A stretch of 64,000 bases of DNA from an uncultured SAR116 cluster alpha proteobacterium (GTDB lineage Bacteria; Pseudomonadota; Alphaproteobacteria; Puniceispirillales; Puniceispirillaceae). The stretch spans positions 1 to 64,000 of the forward strand of contig CABXZZ010000001.1 of assembly GCA_902516825.1 (NCBI GenBank), read 5' to 3'. Shown piece by piece: positions 20,453 to 32,321 of this stretch. The notes below the pieces were generated by a model, which was not told the origin of the DNA, searched no databases, and saw nothing but the letters and a program-made list of their open reading frames with translations. The position numbers and the translations under genes are program-made. Every line of letters begins with the position of its first letter. Position 1 is the first letter of the stretch.

Positions 20453-23673
<3,221 letters not shown>

Positions 23674-23677
<4 letters not shown>

Positions 23678-24732
23678 TTAGTATTGGACGACAAACCATA
23701 GGAGGTGATTCACCCTGTTATATCACGTTAGAAGCTGGGCCAACAATAAATGGTTTCGATTCTGCAAAACAATTAATTGATATCGCGGCAAATACAGGCG
23801 CTGATGCAATTAAATTCCAGTTATTGAATGCAAATGAGCTCGTTGCTGACAAAAAGCAGCAATTTAAATACGAAATATTAATTAATGCGGAAAAGCAACA
23901 AACTAAGAAAATATCAGAATCGCTTTACGATATTCTAAAAAGAAGAGAACTCACAGACGACGAATGGAAAGAATTAAAGAAATATTGTGATAAGAAAAAT
24001 ATAGAATTCTTTGGAACAATATTATCTGACCATTATCTTGAATTAATAAAAGAACTTAAAACAAATACAGTAAAAATTGCTTCTTCAGACATAAATCACA
24101 TACCACTTATAGTTAAGGCCGCAAAGACTGGAATGTGTATTCAATTAGACACTGGAAATGCTTCATATGATGAAATTTCTTATGCAATCAAAAAAATTGA
24201 GGAGCAAGGAAATAACAAAATCGTAATCCATCATTGCCCCACCGGATATCCAGCTGAAATCGAAAGTGTGCAATTAGCTGAAATAACCAAATTAAAAAGC
24301 CTTTTCCCCTATCCAATAGCTTTCTCTGATCATACACCTGGTTGGCATATGAATATAGCTGCAATATGTTTAGGAGCCAATATGGTTGAAAAAACAATTA
24401 CGGTAGATAGAACGACACCATCGGTAGAGCACATGTTCTCCTTGGAAAAAAATGAAGTTCAAAAATTTATCAAAGAGATTAGAGAAGTTGAAAAGGCCAT
24501 CAAAGATACTGAGAGGAAACTTAATCCAGATTTAAAAAAACGATATGCTACACGTAGAAGTATGTTTTCTAAAACTAACATAGAAAAAGGTACAAAAATT
24601 ACAGAAGAGCATATTGAATATAAACGTCCTGGCCTTGGCTTAGGACCCGAAAGGCTAGATGATATCTGTTTTAAAATCGCAAAAAATGACATCCCAGCAG
24701 GTACAATGATAGCCTTAGACCAACTGAACTAA
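23674..24732 (+). CDS. Divergent NeuB/PseI-family nonulosonic acid synthase with SAF domain
   Basis: TLEAGPTINGFDSAKQLIDIAANTGADAIKFQ...IAFSDHTPGWHMNIAAICLGANMVEKTITVDR...GLGLGPERLDDI. Confidence 0.8.
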
Positions 24733-24741
24733 CTTTAGAAA

Positions 24742-25413
24742 ATGTCATCTATTTCTCATCCCATAGCGATAATACCCGCAAGGGGAAATTCAAAAAGGCT
24801 AGCTAGAAAGAATATCCTTCCATGGAAAGGTATACCGTTAGTTGCCCACTGTGTAAAAAATGCATTAGCAACTAATTTATTTTCTGAGGTTGTTGTTTCT
24901 TCCGAAGATGACGAAATATTAGAGATTTCAGCAAAAGTTGGTGCAAGCCCAATAAAACGTCAAGCAAATTTGTCCAAAGACAGTTCCACTGTAGCTGAGG
25001 TTTGCATGAGTGTTCTTCAGGACTATTCAAACATAAAACAGTTTTGTTGCATTTATCCAACTGCTGTAAAACTAACCTCTGAAACTATAAGGGATTCTTT
25101 CAAGACATTTGAAAAAACTGAAGATTGTGATTTTCTAATGGGTGTATCTTTATACAACTACCCCCCTCAACAAGCCTTAATACAAAACGAAAATGGCGAA
25201 TTAATTTTACTTAATCCTAAATTTGAAAATGTTCAATCTCAATTTTATAAAGAATGTTTCGTCAGCAATGGTACAATTTATTGGGCAAAAAACGAAGCAT
25301 TTCTAAAACAAAAGAACTTTTATGGTAAAAAATTGCATCCATTTATCATAAGCGAAGAACAAGTATCCGATATAAACACTCCTGAAGATTACGATATTCT
25401 GATAAAATCGTAA
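24742..25413 (+). CDS. pseF: CMP-nonulosonate cytidylyltransferase, PseF-like
   Basis: AIIPARGNSKRLARKNILPWKGIPLVAHCVKNALATNLFSEVVVSSEDDEIL...NTPEDYDIL. Confidence 0.85.
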   Translation: MSSISHPIAIIPARGNSKRLARKNILPWKGIPLVAHCVKNALATNLFSEVVVSSEDDEILEISAKVGASPIKRQANLSKDSSTVAEVCMSVLQDYSNIKQFCCIYPTAVKLTSETIRDSFKTFEKTEDCDFLMGVSLYNYPPQQALIQNENGELILLNPKFENVQSQFYKECFVSNGTIYWAKNEAFLKQKNFYGKKLHPFIISEEQVSDINTPEDYDILIKS

Positions 25414-25465
25414 AAATTATAGAAAATAAAAATTTCTTTAAACTTTTTTTAATTCAAGACGTTTT

Positions 25466-25481
25466 TGGCATGAATCTTGTT
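25466..25481 (+). promoter_or_regulatory. Possible imperfect sigma54 promoter upstream of flagellin 1
   Basis: TGGCATGAATCTTGTT; -12 is GT instead of GC. Confidence 0.4.
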
Positions 25482-25542
25482 TTCGTGTTCAAATTCAGTA
25501 AGTTGACCTTAAAATCAAATCAATTTATATCCTTTTTTCCAA

Positions 25543-25558
25543 GGCAATTACCGTGCCA
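25543..25558 (-). promoter_or_regulatory. Orphan sigma54 consensus on minus strand in the flagellin-1 upstream region
   Basis: Minus strand TGGCACGGTAATTGCC matches TGGCACG-N4-TTGC exactly; no annotated minus-strand gene downstream. Confidence 0.45.
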
Positions 25559-25600
25559 AAACTAGAGTAAAATTAAATTTTTTTTTAATATGACGTTTAT

Positions 25601-25627
25601 CCTCCTGAGAACTATCAATTCAGGAGG
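25601..25627 (+). promoter_or_regulatory. Hairpin sequestering the flagellin-1 Shine-Dalgarno
   Basis: CCTCCTGA-gaactatcaat-TCAGGAGG; SD AGGAGG lies in the 3' arm, 5 nt before ATG 25633. Confidence 0.75.
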
Positions 25628-25632
25628 TTTAA

Positions 25633-28600
25633 ATGGTCTCAATCAACACAAATATTTCCTCCCTTTTAGCTCAAAATAATACTAGACAGGTAAATAATGA
25701 GCTTGAAAAGGCGATGGAAAGGCTTTCATCTGGAATGCGAATTAACTCTGCTGGCGACGATGCGGCAGGATTAGCTATTGCTAGTCGGATGGAATCTCAA
25801 GTTCGCGGGTTGCAGGCCGCAATTAAAAATGCGAACGACGGTATTTCGGTTACTCAAACGGCAGAAGGTGCCATGGAAGAAATCGGTAATATCCTACAAA
25901 GAATGCGTGAACTAGCAGTACAATCTGCAAACGATTCAAATTCTGATGCCGACAGAGCCTATCTTCAACAGGAAGTAGCTCAACTATCCGATGAGATTAC
26001 ACGTATTTCTGAAACAACACAATTCAATGGTGTCAATGTTTTAGACGGAACATTTGCTGGTAAAACATTCCAAATTGGAGCAAATGCTAATCAGAGTGTA
26101 ACGTTAGATATAGCGAATGTTGCAGCCTCTTCTTTGGGTATAGGCGCCTCTTCAACTTCTTCTACTAGTTCTACAACAACAACCACAAGTGGTGTGCCAG
26201 AAGAGATTGGAAATCTTACATTTGATAGAGATGATAGATACGCCTTCCAACTAACCGACCGCGATACAGGCCTTTCTTATCGTATTAATCCCGCAGGTAC
26301 CGCAGCCACGTCTCCTTCAATTATATCTTTGGATCGATTGATTATCACCGATCATGGATTTAAAACAGGTGATGCTGTCTTTAATACTACCATGGTTGGA
26401 GCTCCAGTGAATACGGTTAGTACGCCTAGGTTCATCATAAAAATTGATGAAGATACATTTCAGTTAGCATCAAGCTACGGTGATGCAATCGCTGGCACTG
26501 CTATTACTTTAACAACCGTCTCTCAGCCCACAGTTACTGGTCTTGGTATATCTCTAACGAGAGCGGATGCAGACTCAAGAGCTGATTTTGCAGCACGTAT
26601 CAATTCAGGTTTAAAAGAATCTGCAGTAAATACATCTGTAACAGGTAATGCCGCTGCTGCATCAGTGTCAGCCTCTACTATGAACGCTTCAGCTGCAAGC
26701 GATGACACCTTTAAGTTTACTTTGATGGTTGGGGATACCACTCAAGAAGTTGATTTTGGTGGTCGTATGCTATCTACCAGTCTTCCAGGTGACTCTACTC
26801 TTGCTGCTGCAGATTATGTGCACGTAGCACAAGCAATGAGAGAAGAACTTCATTCGGTATTCGATGATAGTGTCTCTGTTACACAATCTTCAGGTGTATT
26901 TACCATTGAGGATGCCCAAGGTCGTTATCTTGAGTTAAGCCAGGGTGCTGGTAATGGTTATTTCTTTGGATCTGATGAGCAGAATAGTGGTTCAATCTAC
27001 GCGACTGCTACAACTCAAAACAACATCTCTGTTGCCTGGTCTGATGATGGAAGCAATCTAGTGATAAGTCACGCTGCTGCTGGCGGTGTGGATATTACCA
27101 ATTTTGCAAGTACTAGTACTGGTATAGCTACATTTGATGTTGCGGATACAGCAACAACTGGTGTATTGGAGCCTATTGTTCTTCAGGATACTTTGGCAGA
27201 TACAACTGCTTCTGTAAGAGGTATTATTGGTGAGAGTAAGATTGCTCTTAACTTCAGCAATACCTTCGGTTACGCAGCCGATGGAGGAGGTACAGCCAAC
27301 TCTGGACTAGCGGCAAACTATGTGTTTAAAATCACAGATGGTGCGGGTAATGCCTATGCGGACTTTTCTGGAACAACTTCAGCTCTGGATATTCAGCGTT
27401 TTAACAACACAGATGCGGCAATTGAGGCATTTGTATTAGCTAACCTTACTTCACATATTTCATCAACTGGTTTCAACGATGACCGTATTGATATAGGTGA
27501 ATTTGCTGTTGATTATACAGGCGGTATCTTGACAATCACTAACAGCGAAGGTCGTGACCTTAGAATAGAAGATGTTTCATCTTCCTATGGAACAATCACG
27601 GTATCAAAGCTTGATGGATTAGAAGGAACAGAAAAACTTTCATCTCAGGGGTATCAAACTTCGGAGGTGAGATTGGAGCGTGGTTTTGGCACTACAATCA
27701 CAGCAGCCACTGCGACTATGACAATGGTTCTTGATAGTGGTTCGAGCAGCGTTATAACTGTATCTGCTGCTTTTGTGGGCGGTACTGCTGCTGATACTGG
27801 TTGGGAGCAAGCAGCATTGCTAGAGGCAAGATTGCAGGCAGGAACTGCCTCTGAGGTTAGTACCCACCTCCGAGTTGCATATGACTCAACAACTGACGAG
27901 TTTGTCATTCAGAACACTCTTGGTAAGTCCATAGATATCACAGCAACGACAGCTGCAGGATCTGAAGGCCAGTATTTTAAAACTGCTGCCGCAAGCGGGG
28001 GTGCCAATAAGGCGAATGACGTGCTAGTTAGCTCAGGTATAACCTCTGGTGTGTTAACGGAGGCAACTTCTGTGAAGCTGACGTTTAGCCAGGATGATGT
28101 AGATACATTCATTCTTGGTGTAAACTCTCAGGTATCAACTGCTCGTAGCTTTAACTTCGCATCAGATACCTTTGCTTCAAGTACTTTCAAGACAAGTTTT
28201 GATAACCTCATGGCAAAACTAAACACAGAGTACTCGGGAACGCCGTTCTCATATGAAATGGACGCAGCTAATCGTGCAATTACGATTACAAATAGTAAAG
28301 GTGGTGAGATCTTCTTCGATTCTCATACAACCAACTCGACAGACCTTGAGCTTCAGTTGGATGTTATGTCTGGTGTGTTGCAGAATGCTTCTGATACGTC
28401 TGGTAACGGCGATGCTGTGATTAAGGCAAATGAGGCTGTGACTACTGCAACAGCTACTGGAGACGGAAGTGTAGAAACAACAACTTCTACTAGCTCTTCA
28501 TCCTCTAGCTATTCCACTGGTAACACAGGTATAGACCAGCTGACTATCGCTACTCAGGCTGGTGCCAACGATGCACTTGGAAGTATTGATGCTGCTTTAG

Positions 28601-28839
28601 CAACTATCCTTTCAGAAAGAGCAAAACTTGGTGCCCTTGAAAATAGGTTGGACCATACTGTGAATAACCTATCTAACGTTGCAACTAATACATCTGCAGC
28701 TATGGGTAGAATTATGGATGCTGATTTCGCTAGAGAGACAACTAATCTTACGAAATCACAGATCTTGTCTCAGGCAGCGACATCTATGCTGGCTCAGGCT
28801 AATCAGTCTAAGCAAAATATCCTGGCTTTACTTCAGTAA
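25633..28839 (+). CDS. fliC: Giant flagellin 1 (1068 aa)
   Basis: Conserved D0/D1 N-terminus (NTNISSLLAQNNTRQVNNELEKAMERLSSGMRINSAGDDAAGLAIA) and C-terminus (LGALENRLDHTVNNLSNVATNTSAAMGRIMDADFARETTNLTKSQIL). Confidence 0.97.
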   Translation: MVSINTNISSLLAQNNTRQVNNELEKAMERLSSGMRINSAGDDAAGLAIASRMESQVRGLQAAIKNANDGISVTQTAEGAMEEIGNILQRMRELAVQSANDSNSDADRAYLQQEVAQLSDEITRISETTQFNGVNVLDGTFAGKTFQIGANANQSVTLDIANVAASSLGIGASSTSSTSSTTTTTSGVPEEIGNLTFDRDDRYAFQLTDRDTGLSYRINPAGTAATSPSIISLDRLIITDHGFKTGDAVFNTTMVGAPVNTVSTPRFIIKIDEDTFQLASSYGDAIAGTAITLTTVSQPTVTGLGISLTRADADSRADFAARINSGLKESAVNTSVTGNAAAASVSASTMNASAASDDTFKFTLMVGDTTQEVDFGGRMLSTSLPGDSTLAAADYVHVAQAMREELHSVFDDSVSVTQSSGVFTIEDAQGRYLELSQGAGNGYFFGSDEQNSGSIYATATTQNNISVAWSDDGSNLVISHAAAGGVDITNFASTSTGIATFDVADTATTGVLEPIVLQDTLADTTASVRGIIGESKIALNFSNTFGYAADGGGTANSGLAANYVFKITDGAGNAYADFSGTTSALDIQRFNNTDAAIEAFVLANLTSHISSTGFNDDRIDIGEFAVDYTGGILTITNSEGRDLRIEDVSSSYGTITVSKLDGLEGTEKLSSQGYQTSEVRLERGFGTTITAATATMTMVLDSGSSSVITVSAAFVGGTAADTGWEQAALLEARLQAGTASEVSTHLRVAYDSTTDEFVIQNTLGKSIDITATTAAGSEGQYFKTAAASGGANKANDVLVSSGITSGVLTEATSVKLTFSQDDVDTFILGVNSQVSTARSFNFASDTFASSTFKTSFDNLMAKLNTEYSGTPFSYEMDAANRAITITNSKGGEIFFDSHTTNSTDLELQLDVMSGVLQNASDTSGNGDAVIKANEAVTTATATGDGSVETTTSTSSSSSSYSTGNTGIDQLTIATQAGANDALGSIDAALATILSERAKLGALENRLDHTVNNLSNVATNTSAAMGRIMDADFARETTNLTKSQILSQAATSMLAQANQSKQNILALLQ

Positions 28840-29071: not shown

Positions 29072-29098
29072 TTAACACAAAAAAAATCAAGCCGTTTA
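29072..29098 (+). promoter_or_regulatory. Possible sigma28 promoter of flagellin 2
   Basis: TTAA-N15-GCCGTTTA, similar to TAAA-N15-GCCGATAA. Confidence 0.4.
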
Positions 29099-29132
29099 CT
29101 TTTACGTTGATTGATTTTTAAACCTTTTTGAA

Positions 29133-32100
29133 ATGGAGATGAAGATGGTAGCGATTAACACTAATATTGCCTCTCTTTTAGCTCAGGAGAGTTCAAGAAA
29201 AGTAAATATTGAGCTGGAAAAGGCTATGGAGAGACTATCTTCTGGCCTTCGTATAAATTCAGCCGGGGATGATGCTGCGGGTCTTGCGATCGCAAGCCGA
29301 ATGGAAGCTCAAGTGAGGGGTCTTCAGGCAGCAATAAAAAACGCATCCGATGGTATTTCTCTTACACAAGTAGCTGAGGGCGCAATGGAGGAAATAAGCA
29401 ATATTCTCCATAGAATGAGAGAATTAGCCATCCAGTCAGCTAATGATTCTAACTCATATGATGAGCGTACATTTTTACAAGATGAAGTCCAGCAACTCGC
29501 AGATGAAATATCTAGAATTGCTCAGACCACACAGTTTAATGGTGTAAATGTTTTGGATGGAACTTATCAGAATAGATTTTTCCAAATCGGCGCTAACGCC
29601 AATCAAAATGTAGGAATTTCAATAGGTGATTTAGGTTCAGCAGCTCTTGGATTAGGCACTGGAAGTGGAATTTTCCAAACTCAGGGTAACCTACAAACTG
29701 GTGAAGCTGAGGAGCTTGGACGCGTTACTTTTTCAAGAGACGATGTTTATTCTTTTCAACTAACCGATAGAGATACTGGTCTATCCTATAGAATTGCAAA
29801 AGCAGCTCAGACAGGAACAGCAACCAGTTCCACTTTTGATACTATTACAGTTGCTAATCATGGTTTTATTACAGGCGATAAAGTAATCAGTTCTACTCTT
29901 GCTGGAGTAAGCACAACTGCATCAACCGTAAGATATATAATCAAAGTTGATGAAAACACATTTAAGCTTGCAACTAATCTTGGCAACGCTATCAACGGCA
30001 CGGCTCTAGATTTAACAACTGCTACCAACCCTAATATTACCGGGGTCGGCTTGACTCTAAGTCGGTCAGACGAAGACTCTAAAGTAGATTTCATTGAGCG
30101 TATTAATAGAGGCTTAAAAGAGTCAGCTTCTAATACTGCAATAACAGGTAATTCCTCGTCAAGAAGTGTTGATGCCACAACTTTTAATGCAGCATCAGCA
30201 GATGATTCCATGTTTAAATTCACCTTGACGGTGAATGGCGTAGCCGAAGATATAGATATAAAAAGCAGAGTTTTAGTTTCTGCGTCTGATACAACGGCTG
30301 TTACATATGCCGAAGCTGCTGCTTCGATGACTAAAGAGGTCGGGGGTCTGTTTGATGAAAGTATTAGCGTTTCCCATTCTTCTGGTGTTTTCACAGTGAC
30401 TGACGCTCAAGGAAGAGCATTAGTAGTTGAACAAGGAAATGGAACTGGCTACTTCTTTGGATCAGACGTTCAAAATAGCGGACCATTAGAGGTACAAGCC
30501 AATGAATTCAATGGTTTGACTGTTGAATGGGATGAAGACGAAATGGTAGTAAGACATGCAAATAGTGGCGGTGTTGATTTAACAAATTTCAGTAGTACTG
30601 GACTTGGCACGGCAACCTTTGATGTAGCTGACACTGCAATAAGCGCTTTAAAAGAGCCAGTTACTTTTCAGGACACCGCAGCGTCTACGGTGGGAAGTGC
30701 TAAAGGCGATATTGGAGAAAGCAAAATTGCTGTTAATTTTTCTAATACCTTTGGATATGCCGCTGATGGTGCTGGGACATCTAATACCGCCTTGGTAGCA
30801 GAATATGGTTTCAAAGTTACTGATGGTGATGGACACCATTATATAGCTTTTACGGCTGGTTCACTTCTGGATATTCAGCGAATGAATAATACGGATGCCG
30901 CTGTTAAAGCAGCCGTAGAGGCAAATCTAGCTGCACAAATTTTAGTTGGAGCAAATTCTGGAAACTTTAACGATAACAGAATATCTGCGGATGAATTTGA
31001 AATCGGTTATGCAAGTGGAATTCTTACAATAACTAACCTCGAGGGTCGTGACTTAGCAATAGAGGAGTTCACCTCAGAGCACGGGACTGCAACGGTGTCT
31101 CTACTAGATGGTCTTCAAGGATCTGAGCACCTTTCTTCGAAGTATTCTCACCATTCGGAAGTGCGTTTGGGAAGAGGATTTCAAACCACTGTTACTGCAT
31201 CTACTGCAACAATGACCTTCACAATTGATAGTGGAACAGCGAGTGTTAGAGATATCTCCTCTGCTTTTCCAGGAGGTACAAATGGTGACACTGGATGGGA
31301 GCAAGCTGCATTACTGGAAACTGCTCTTCAAGCTGGAACTGCAACTGGAGCAAATACAAACATTAGAGTTGCTTACGACTCTAGTACTGATGAGTTTGTT
31401 ATTACAGATATTGTTGGTAGGGAAATAAATATCACTGCAGTTACTGAGCCGGCTTCTTCTGGAACGGGGGCTTATTTTAGCAATAGTGCGTCGGTCGCCC
31501 AGTCAAATAAATATAATCCTGTGGCAACAAGTACTGATGTCGTTTCGGGGATATTAACTGAAGCAACAAAAGTTAATTTAACATTTTCGCAAGATGACGC
31601 AACTAGTGCCTCTTTTGCTCTAAATGGACAAACTGCAACTGCTGTTGACTTCAACTTTGACTCCGACAACTTTCATGGGAGCACATTTAAAACAGTATTA
31701 AATAATTTGATGAACACATTAAATGACGAGTATAATGGATCACCATTTTCCTATGAATTTGATCAGGATAATAGGACTCTTACAATCTTGCACTCAAAAG
31801 GCGGTGAAATATATATTGATAATTTTACAACGTCTGCTGAGAACTTATCCATTAATATGGAAGTTGAGTCAGGAATTGGTGAAGACACTATTATTTCCTA
31901 CGATGAAATTCTAACAGCAGCATCTGCTGAGGGAAGTGGTGAGAATTCGGGCAGACCTAGAATTAATGACGGGTCAAATAGCTCTGGTTTTTCTCAAGAT
32001 ACCAGTAATATCTCAGAATTAGATATATCCTCTCAAGAGGGTGCAAATTCAGCACTAGCTAGTATAGACAATGCTCTAATGTATGTACTCGCAGAAAGAG

Positions 32101-32321
32101 CAAGTCTGGGTGCGATTGAAAACAGGTTGGACCATACGGTTAATAACCTATCAAATGTGGTTACAAATACCAGTGCGGCGAAGGGGCGAATAGAGGATGC
32201 TGATTTTGCAGCAGAGTCTACAAAGCTCACCCGCGCTCAGATATTGGCGCAGGCTTCAACGTCAATGTTAGCGCAAGCTAACCAATCGAAGCAAAATGTT
32301 CTATCTCTTCTCCAGGGATAA
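29133..32321 (+). CDS. fliC: Giant flagellin 2 (1062 aa); ATG at 29145 also possible
   Basis: Same D0/D1 architecture; paralogous over its full length to flagellin 1. Confidence 0.97.
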   Translation: MEMKMVAINTNIASLLAQESSRKVNIELEKAMERLSSGLRINSAGDDAAGLAIASRMEAQVRGLQAAIKNASDGISLTQVAEGAMEEISNILHRMRELAIQSANDSNSYDERTFLQDEVQQLADEISRIAQTTQFNGVNVLDGTYQNRFFQIGANANQNVGISIGDLGSAALGLGTGSGIFQTQGNLQTGEAEELGRVTFSRDDVYSFQLTDRDTGLSYRIAKAAQTGTATSSTFDTITVANHGFITGDKVISSTLAGVSTTASTVRYIIKVDENTFKLATNLGNAINGTALDLTTATNPNITGVGLTLSRSDEDSKVDFIERINRGLKESASNTAITGNSSSRSVDATTFNAASADDSMFKFTLTVNGVAEDIDIKSRVLVSASDTTAVTYAEAAASMTKEVGGLFDESISVSHSSGVFTVTDAQGRALVVEQGNGTGYFFGSDVQNSGPLEVQANEFNGLTVEWDEDEMVVRHANSGGVDLTNFSSTGLGTATFDVADTAISALKEPVTFQDTAASTVGSAKGDIGESKIAVNFSNTFGYAADGAGTSNTALVAEYGFKVTDGDGHHYIAFTAGSLLDIQRMNNTDAAVKAAVEANLAAQILVGANSGNFNDNRISADEFEIGYASGILTITNLEGRDLAIEEFTSEHGTATVSLLDGLQGSEHLSSKYSHHSEVRLGRGFQTTVTASTATMTFTIDSGTASVRDISSAFPGGTNGDTGWEQAALLETALQAGTATGANTNIRVAYDSSTDEFVITDIVGREINITAVTEPASSGTGAYFSNSASVAQSNKYNPVATSTDVVSGILTEATKVNLTFSQDDATSASFALNGQTATAVDFNFDSDNFHGSTFKTVLNNLMNTLNDEYNGSPFSYEFDQDNRTLTILHSKGGEIYIDNFTTSAENLSINMEVESGIGEDTIISYDEILTAASAEGSGENSGRPRINDGSNSSGFSQDTSNISELDISSQEGANSALASIDNALMYVLAERASLGAIENRLDHTVNNLSNVVTNTSAAKGRIEDADFAAESTKLTRAQILAQASTSMLAQANQSKQNVLSLLQG

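Follow-up and report, generated by a model that had tools for sequence, protein, structure and literature searches.

FlbT and CsrA/FliW are known to regulate flagellin at the level of translation. Caulobacter fljK, which is under FlbT control, is an alphaproteobacterial flagellin gene with a structured 5' leader near its Shine-Dalgarno sequence (SD). A masked SD has been described for phage T4 gene e (lysozyme), whose long early transcripts mask the SD in a helix, while a late promoter lying over the 5' strand of that helix gives rise to late transcripts that lack the strand and are translated; the T4 genes soc, 49 and I-TevI are similarly arranged (PMC3014915).

The locus described here belongs to an alphaproteobacterial genome that is 62% complete and whose nearest named relatives belong to the SAR116 cluster, and was analysed within a window of 64,000 nucleotides, by which the whole stretch of DNA is meant. 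The surroundings of its first flagellin gene comprise the following features:

21366..21381, plus strand: sigma54 site TGGTACGTATTTTGCA before the pse-type genes, matching 11/12 positions, a possible source of read-through
21388..25413, plus strand: four co-directional pse/neu-type sugar genes (Pfam matches), directly upstream of flagellin 1
25466..25481, plus strand: weak sigma54-like site TGGCATGAATCTTGTT, matching 10/12 positions, with GT instead of GC at -12; a candidate source of a long leader
25543..25558, minus strand: sigma54 consensus TGGCACGGTAATTGCC, matching 11/12 positions and pointing away from flagellin 1
25633..28839, plus strand: flagellin 1 gene (fla1), 1068 aa
28892..28913, plus strand: strong intrinsic terminator after flagellin 1, a 9-pair stem followed by a T-rich tail
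29091..29098, plus strand: sigma28 -10 octamer of flagellin 2, GCCGTTTA, with a predicted start at 29106 and without an anti-SD discriminator
29145..32321, plus strand: flagellin 2 gene with corrected start, at which MVAIN aligns with MVSIN of flagellin 1 and the SD GGAG lies just upstream

The automatic start of flagellin 2 (29133) is 12 nt too early, the SD and homology both favouring 29145. Another large flagellin-like gene, with the N-terminus MSDLSIN or MSELSIN, is found in congeners (L159, L160, L161), and its sigma28 octamer ends 16-17 nt before the ATG, which gives a leader of about 10 nt.

The SD of flagellin 1 is part of an inverted repeat, which in a long RNA is predicted to fold into a hairpin within a further helix:

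25601..25609, plus strand: 5' arm of the hairpin, CCTCCTGAG (sequence check and long-RNA fold)
25619..25627, plus strand: 3' arm of the hairpin, TTCAGGAGG (sequence check and long-RNA fold)
25622..25627, plus strand: SD, AGGAGG (sequence)
25630..25638, plus strand: 3' strand of the outer helix, start codon included (fold)

The first-pass annotation had reported full complementarity between CCTCCTGA (25601-25608) and TCAGGAGG (25620-25627), with the SD placed 5 nt (25628-25632) before the ATG at 25633, and both observations are correct to the nucleotide. Folding of the long RNA predicts an inner stem of nine pairs (25601-25609 with 25619-25627), the last of them G-U, with a 9-nt loop (-12.4 kcal/mol), and an outer helix of eight pairs (25592-25599 with 25630-25638) around the AUG, for a total of -17.4 kcal/mol. 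The 161-nt fold that contains this hairpin has a z of -2.5, and in the predicted long RNA the SD is never free (unpaired 0.00). Complementarity of the sigma28 octamer itself to the start codon region seemed striking in some genes but shows no excess over other genes (mean rank 0.48). Flagellin 2 is indeed without an equivalent stem, as had been stated (pairing -0.9 kcal/mol, permutation P 0.99). No Rfam family matched in the hairpin region, the single sub-threshold match lying elsewhere (28656-28706), and a curated or conserved RNA family was therefore dropped as the identity of the hairpin.

Directly upstream of the hairpin lies a sigma28 promoter, in which TTAAAT is followed at the correct spacing by GACGTTTA. 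Its elements overlap those of the predicted fold:

25574..25577, plus strand: -35 core TAAA of the arrangement TAAA-N14-GACGTTTA, in which N14 is recurrent in the order
25592..25599, plus strand: -10 octamer GACGTTTA, which is also the 5' strand of the outer helix in the long RNA (motif and fold)
25600..25606, plus strand: TCCTCCT, the discriminator that separates the -10 octamer from +1 and bears most of the anti-SD arm
25607, plus strand: predicted sigma28 transcription start (G), at the pyrimidine-purine step of related promoters

Sigma28 sites occur only twice in the window, each time before a flagellin gene (0.2 expected). The architecture CTAAAC, N14, GTCGTAA or variants of it is common to some 60 regions upstream of flagellin genes in the order that carry a sigma28-type motif, and the 14-nt spacing between -35 and -10 is found in nearly all of the sigma28-type flagellin promoters. 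According to their promoters, the flagellin genes of the order (L030-L139) can be grouped into two classes, one with sigma54 sites (TTGGCAT..TTGCA) and short leaders, the other with sigma28 and N14. FlgM is encoded in the window (Pfam matches), and FliA, which was not found over the cut-off in the source genome, itself only 62% complete, exceeds it in 9/9 other genomes of the genus; together with the conserved spacing of the -35/-10 motif before the gene, this assigns flagellin 1 to the sigma28 class of late promoters.

With regard to the start of transcription, a pyrimidine-purine step at positions +7/+8 from the octamer is present in 38 of 43 non-redundant sigma28 promoters of the order (88%), against 2-42% at other positions, and in 26 of 34 sigma28 flagellin promoters collected independently from Pseudomonadota outside the order, against 2-10 of 34 elsewhere. 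Because this step marks the start in both sets, transcription of flagellin 1 from the sigma28 promoter very probably begins at G25607, with a likely range of 25606-25608; this agrees with E. coli aer, whose mapped start lies 6 bp past its octamer (PMC2859248). Such a comparative signature allows sigma28 starts to be placed directly in bacteria that have not been cultured. Sequence comparison shows the repeat and the promoter as well as the predicted position of the start. Since the predicted +1 falls inside the 5' arm, 25601-25606, or six of the eight arm bases, would be untranscribed promoter discriminator, and, with the arm mostly upstream of +1, the stem would form only in RNA begun further upstream. 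The first-pass annotation had proposed that the stem masks the SD and blocks initiation, and thus that flagellin 1 is under translational control. Blocking is possible for any RNA that has both arms, but most of the 5' arm lies outside the predicted leader of the main flagellin mRNA; translational control is not supported for the main sigma28 mRNA and survives, in a narrower form, only for upstream-initiated transcripts.

The predicted folds vary with the position at which the RNA begins. In RNAs from 25493, 25580, 25593 or 25600 the SD is unpaired at 0.00 (energy -12 to -17), and the value is 0.3-0.4 from 25603, 0.46-0.74 from 25605 and 0.17-0.75 from 25607, starts at 25605-25608 having energies of -3 to -6 when a short stretch of coding sequence is included. 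With 10 nt of coding sequence, the value is 0.00 when the RNA begins at the octamer end, 0.93 when it begins 4 nt further on and 0.99 at 6 nt; in the G104 orthologue it rises from 0.00 to 0.70. Positions 25655-25663, inside the flagellin 1 coding sequence, read TTTCCTCCC, whose CCTCC (25658-25662) may pair weakly with the SD in short mRNA, and the spread seen from 25607 is attributed to this pairing. Depending on start and length, the SD of the short mRNA is unpaired at 0.12-0.75, so that 'open' is a relative term. A 'switch' score calculated from folds that took in 36 coding nt failed to set the window gene apart (long 0.17, short 0.19), the contrast being blurred by the same weak pairing and by the six scored bases (GGAGGT) lying one off from the SD; start-by-start folds were used in its place.

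Among the long-leader sigma28 flagellin genes of the order, L062, L064, L075 and L081 have common 5' stems of the type GAACAT/ATGTTC near the predicted +1, which are perhaps mRNA stabilisers. A single hairpin conserved in all sigma28 flagellins of the order was considered and dropped, as many leaders have other stems or none. That the flagellin 1 element is likewise a 5'-terminal stem that stabilises its mRNA is most unlikely: the leaders of L062, L064 and L075 do fold into stems from near the predicted +1, whereas the flagellin 1 stem needs bases before +1, and from 25607 onwards only weak structure is predicted.

FlbT, CsrA and FliW were found in 0/136 genomes of the order, the controls being positive for FlbT in Caulobacter, for CsrA in E. 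coli, B. subtilis and Thermotoga, and for FliW in B. subtilis and Thermotoga. Many of the 136 genomes are incomplete, but none of the 43 with a completeness of at least 90% and little contamination has a match to any of the three. The earlier remark that no such gene lies nearby thus holds for the whole order, and explanations by FlbT, CsrA or FliW were dropped; regulation of the main mRNA by a protein like FlbT or CsrA/FliW, with which an analogy in logic had been drawn, is further weakened. A hairpin within the main flagellin mRNA, opened or stabilised by a regulator, would agree with the strong stem that covers SD and AUG when the leader is long and with the kind of flagellin control known for these proteins. 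It is nevertheless improbable, given a 5' arm that lies mostly before the predicted start, the lack of the three families in the 136 genomes and the lack of an Rfam match in the region.

For RNA that reaches flagellin 1 from upstream, several sources can be named. Such RNA is plausible because no intrinsic terminator was found between the pse genes and flagellin 1 (25413-25633), because a sigma54 site is present at 21366, and because the weak forward sigma54-like site (25466), absent in G101, recurs in G104 equally far from the gene (-167/-168). The reverse sigma54 site (25543-25558) matches 11/12 positions in the window and in G104 and 10/12 in G101. The equivalent reverse site in other genera of the order is the promoter of a divergent gene of some 450 aa; at the window nothing divergent is left, and the site would transcribe antisense to the last pse gene.

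In their pairing with the SD zone, the 9 nt that follow the -10 octamer surpass 4000/4000 random 9-mers of the window and 99.9% of same-letter permutations (P = 0.001). A looser count of any perfect 8-pair stem overlapping the SD zone, made over about 53 start sites of the window, gives P = 0.036, and such a stem is present at one other site, where all pairs are A-T. These values bear on the main rival explanation, according to which the discriminator is C-rich because of its role in the promoter (melting, stringent control) and its complementarity to a purine-rich SD is fortuitous. Such a coincidence is possible, albeit unlikely. The loose count is in line with it, as are same-letter permutations of the 7-nt discriminator alone (P 0.06 in the window, 0.26 in G104) and a population signal that weakens under composition control. 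It is opposed by the 9-nt permutation result, by pairing that reaches past the SD core (TGA/TCA), by discriminators that are not C-rich elsewhere in the order, and by the A/T-rich arm of G101, which still matches its own leader.

Three fla1 orthologues are present in the collections, the window's own included, and searches of the genus for further ones returned only paralogues and fragments. The window discriminator matches its own SD zone at P 0.001, and the G104 orthologue retains the arm with a one-base insertion (CCTTCCTGA). The G101 orthologue, which has a weak SD, carries a quite different arm, CCATTTT, matching AAAATGG of its own leader (P 0.005 against random 7-mers, 0.006 against permutations). 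In a G104 paralogue (G104_C9, contig 9) the match is TTTCC/GGAA (P 0.02 and 0.04); for the genus combined, with the discovery gene left out, P is 0.004. These comparisons also concern a reading in which the repeat acts on DNA at the start of the promoter, be it as operator or as cruciform. The repeat covers the discriminator and +1, a classic repressor position, but the orthologues retain complementarity and not sequence (CCTCCTGA against CCATTTT), unlike a sequence-specific operator, which leaves this reading very little probability.

Beyond the genus, recurrence of the anti-SD discriminator is no more than suggestive. In the order, 4/43 discriminators match at P 0.01 or better (0.43 expected), a figure that becomes 2/40 at P<=0.01 without the fla1 family (binomial P 0.06), and complementarity is clear in only 4-8 of the 43. 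The match is also seen in L053 and L129, both of them preceded by co-directional flagellar genes. When matches are ranked against the SD zones of other genes, the own-SD match of 36 promoters that belong to the order but not to the genus is highest right at the discriminator (z 3.0), and there is none in the octamer, in the spacer or downstream of +1; the same segment of 30 promoters outside the order gives z 2.2-2.4, or about 2 with composition control. If the letters are permuted within each discriminator, a z of about 1.4-2 is left for the recurrence, and some control segments reach 1.9. It is doubtful that sigma28 flagellin promoters of the Pseudomonadota repeatedly bear untranscribed anti-SD discriminators, so that the flagellar hierarchy would be enforced twice; if they did, sigma28 would be needed both to make flagellin mRNA and to make it maskless.

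Taken as a whole, we favour, with evenly divided confidence, the reading of the element as a promoter-embedded mask of the ribosome site, acting in upstream-initiated RNA. The sigma28 promoter would begin flagellin 1 RNA at or near G25607, within the 5' arm, and the resulting mRNA, whose leader of some 26 nt (GAGAACUAUCAAUUCAGGAGGUUUAA-AUG) lacks the greater part of the anti-SD strand, would be translatable. RNA begun upstream, by read-through from the pse-type genes or from the 25466 site, would have both arms and fold to about -17 kcal/mol, hiding the SD and part of the AUG, and the mask would in this way keep early or read-through RNA from making flagellin until export of FlgM frees sigma28. 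We infer the existence of the upstream RNA, the working of the mask and selection for it. Against the mask count the poor -12 element of the forward sigma54-like site, the weak SD of G101 and the absence of a co-directional gene adjoining its flagellin, the small share of promoters with clear complementarity, the loss of recurrence signal under permutation, and the weak pairing that the SD may have in the short mRNA.

Compared with known systems, the flagellin 1 promoter resembles a classical sigma28 (FliA) flagellin promoter in its TAAA and G-N-CG octamer and in a start predicted 8 nt past the octamer, a distance shared with other Pseudomonadota, and differs from it by N14 in place of N15, by the octamer GACGTTTA and by the anti-SD discriminator. 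With the CsrA/FliW systems acting on hag of Bacillus and flaA of Campylobacter it would share translational control of a major flagellin, although the order has neither CsrA nor FliW; unlike fljK under FlbT, it belongs to an order without an FlbT gene and has its arm outside the predicted mRNA. The closest likeness is to T4 gene e: the SD and AUG of flagellin 1 lie in a stable predicted helix of the longer RNA, and a later promoter, as placed by comparison only, starts inside the 5' strand. Unlike in T4, this late promoter belongs to sigma28 of a bacterial flagellar cascade, and masking and long transcripts are predictions. If they are borne out, a late sigma factor would govern whether flagellin is transcribed and also whether it can be translated, without the help of a regulatory protein or small RNA, in a marine order that has none of the three known flagellin translational regulators tested, and the timing device of phage T4 would also work in a bacterial organelle cascade.
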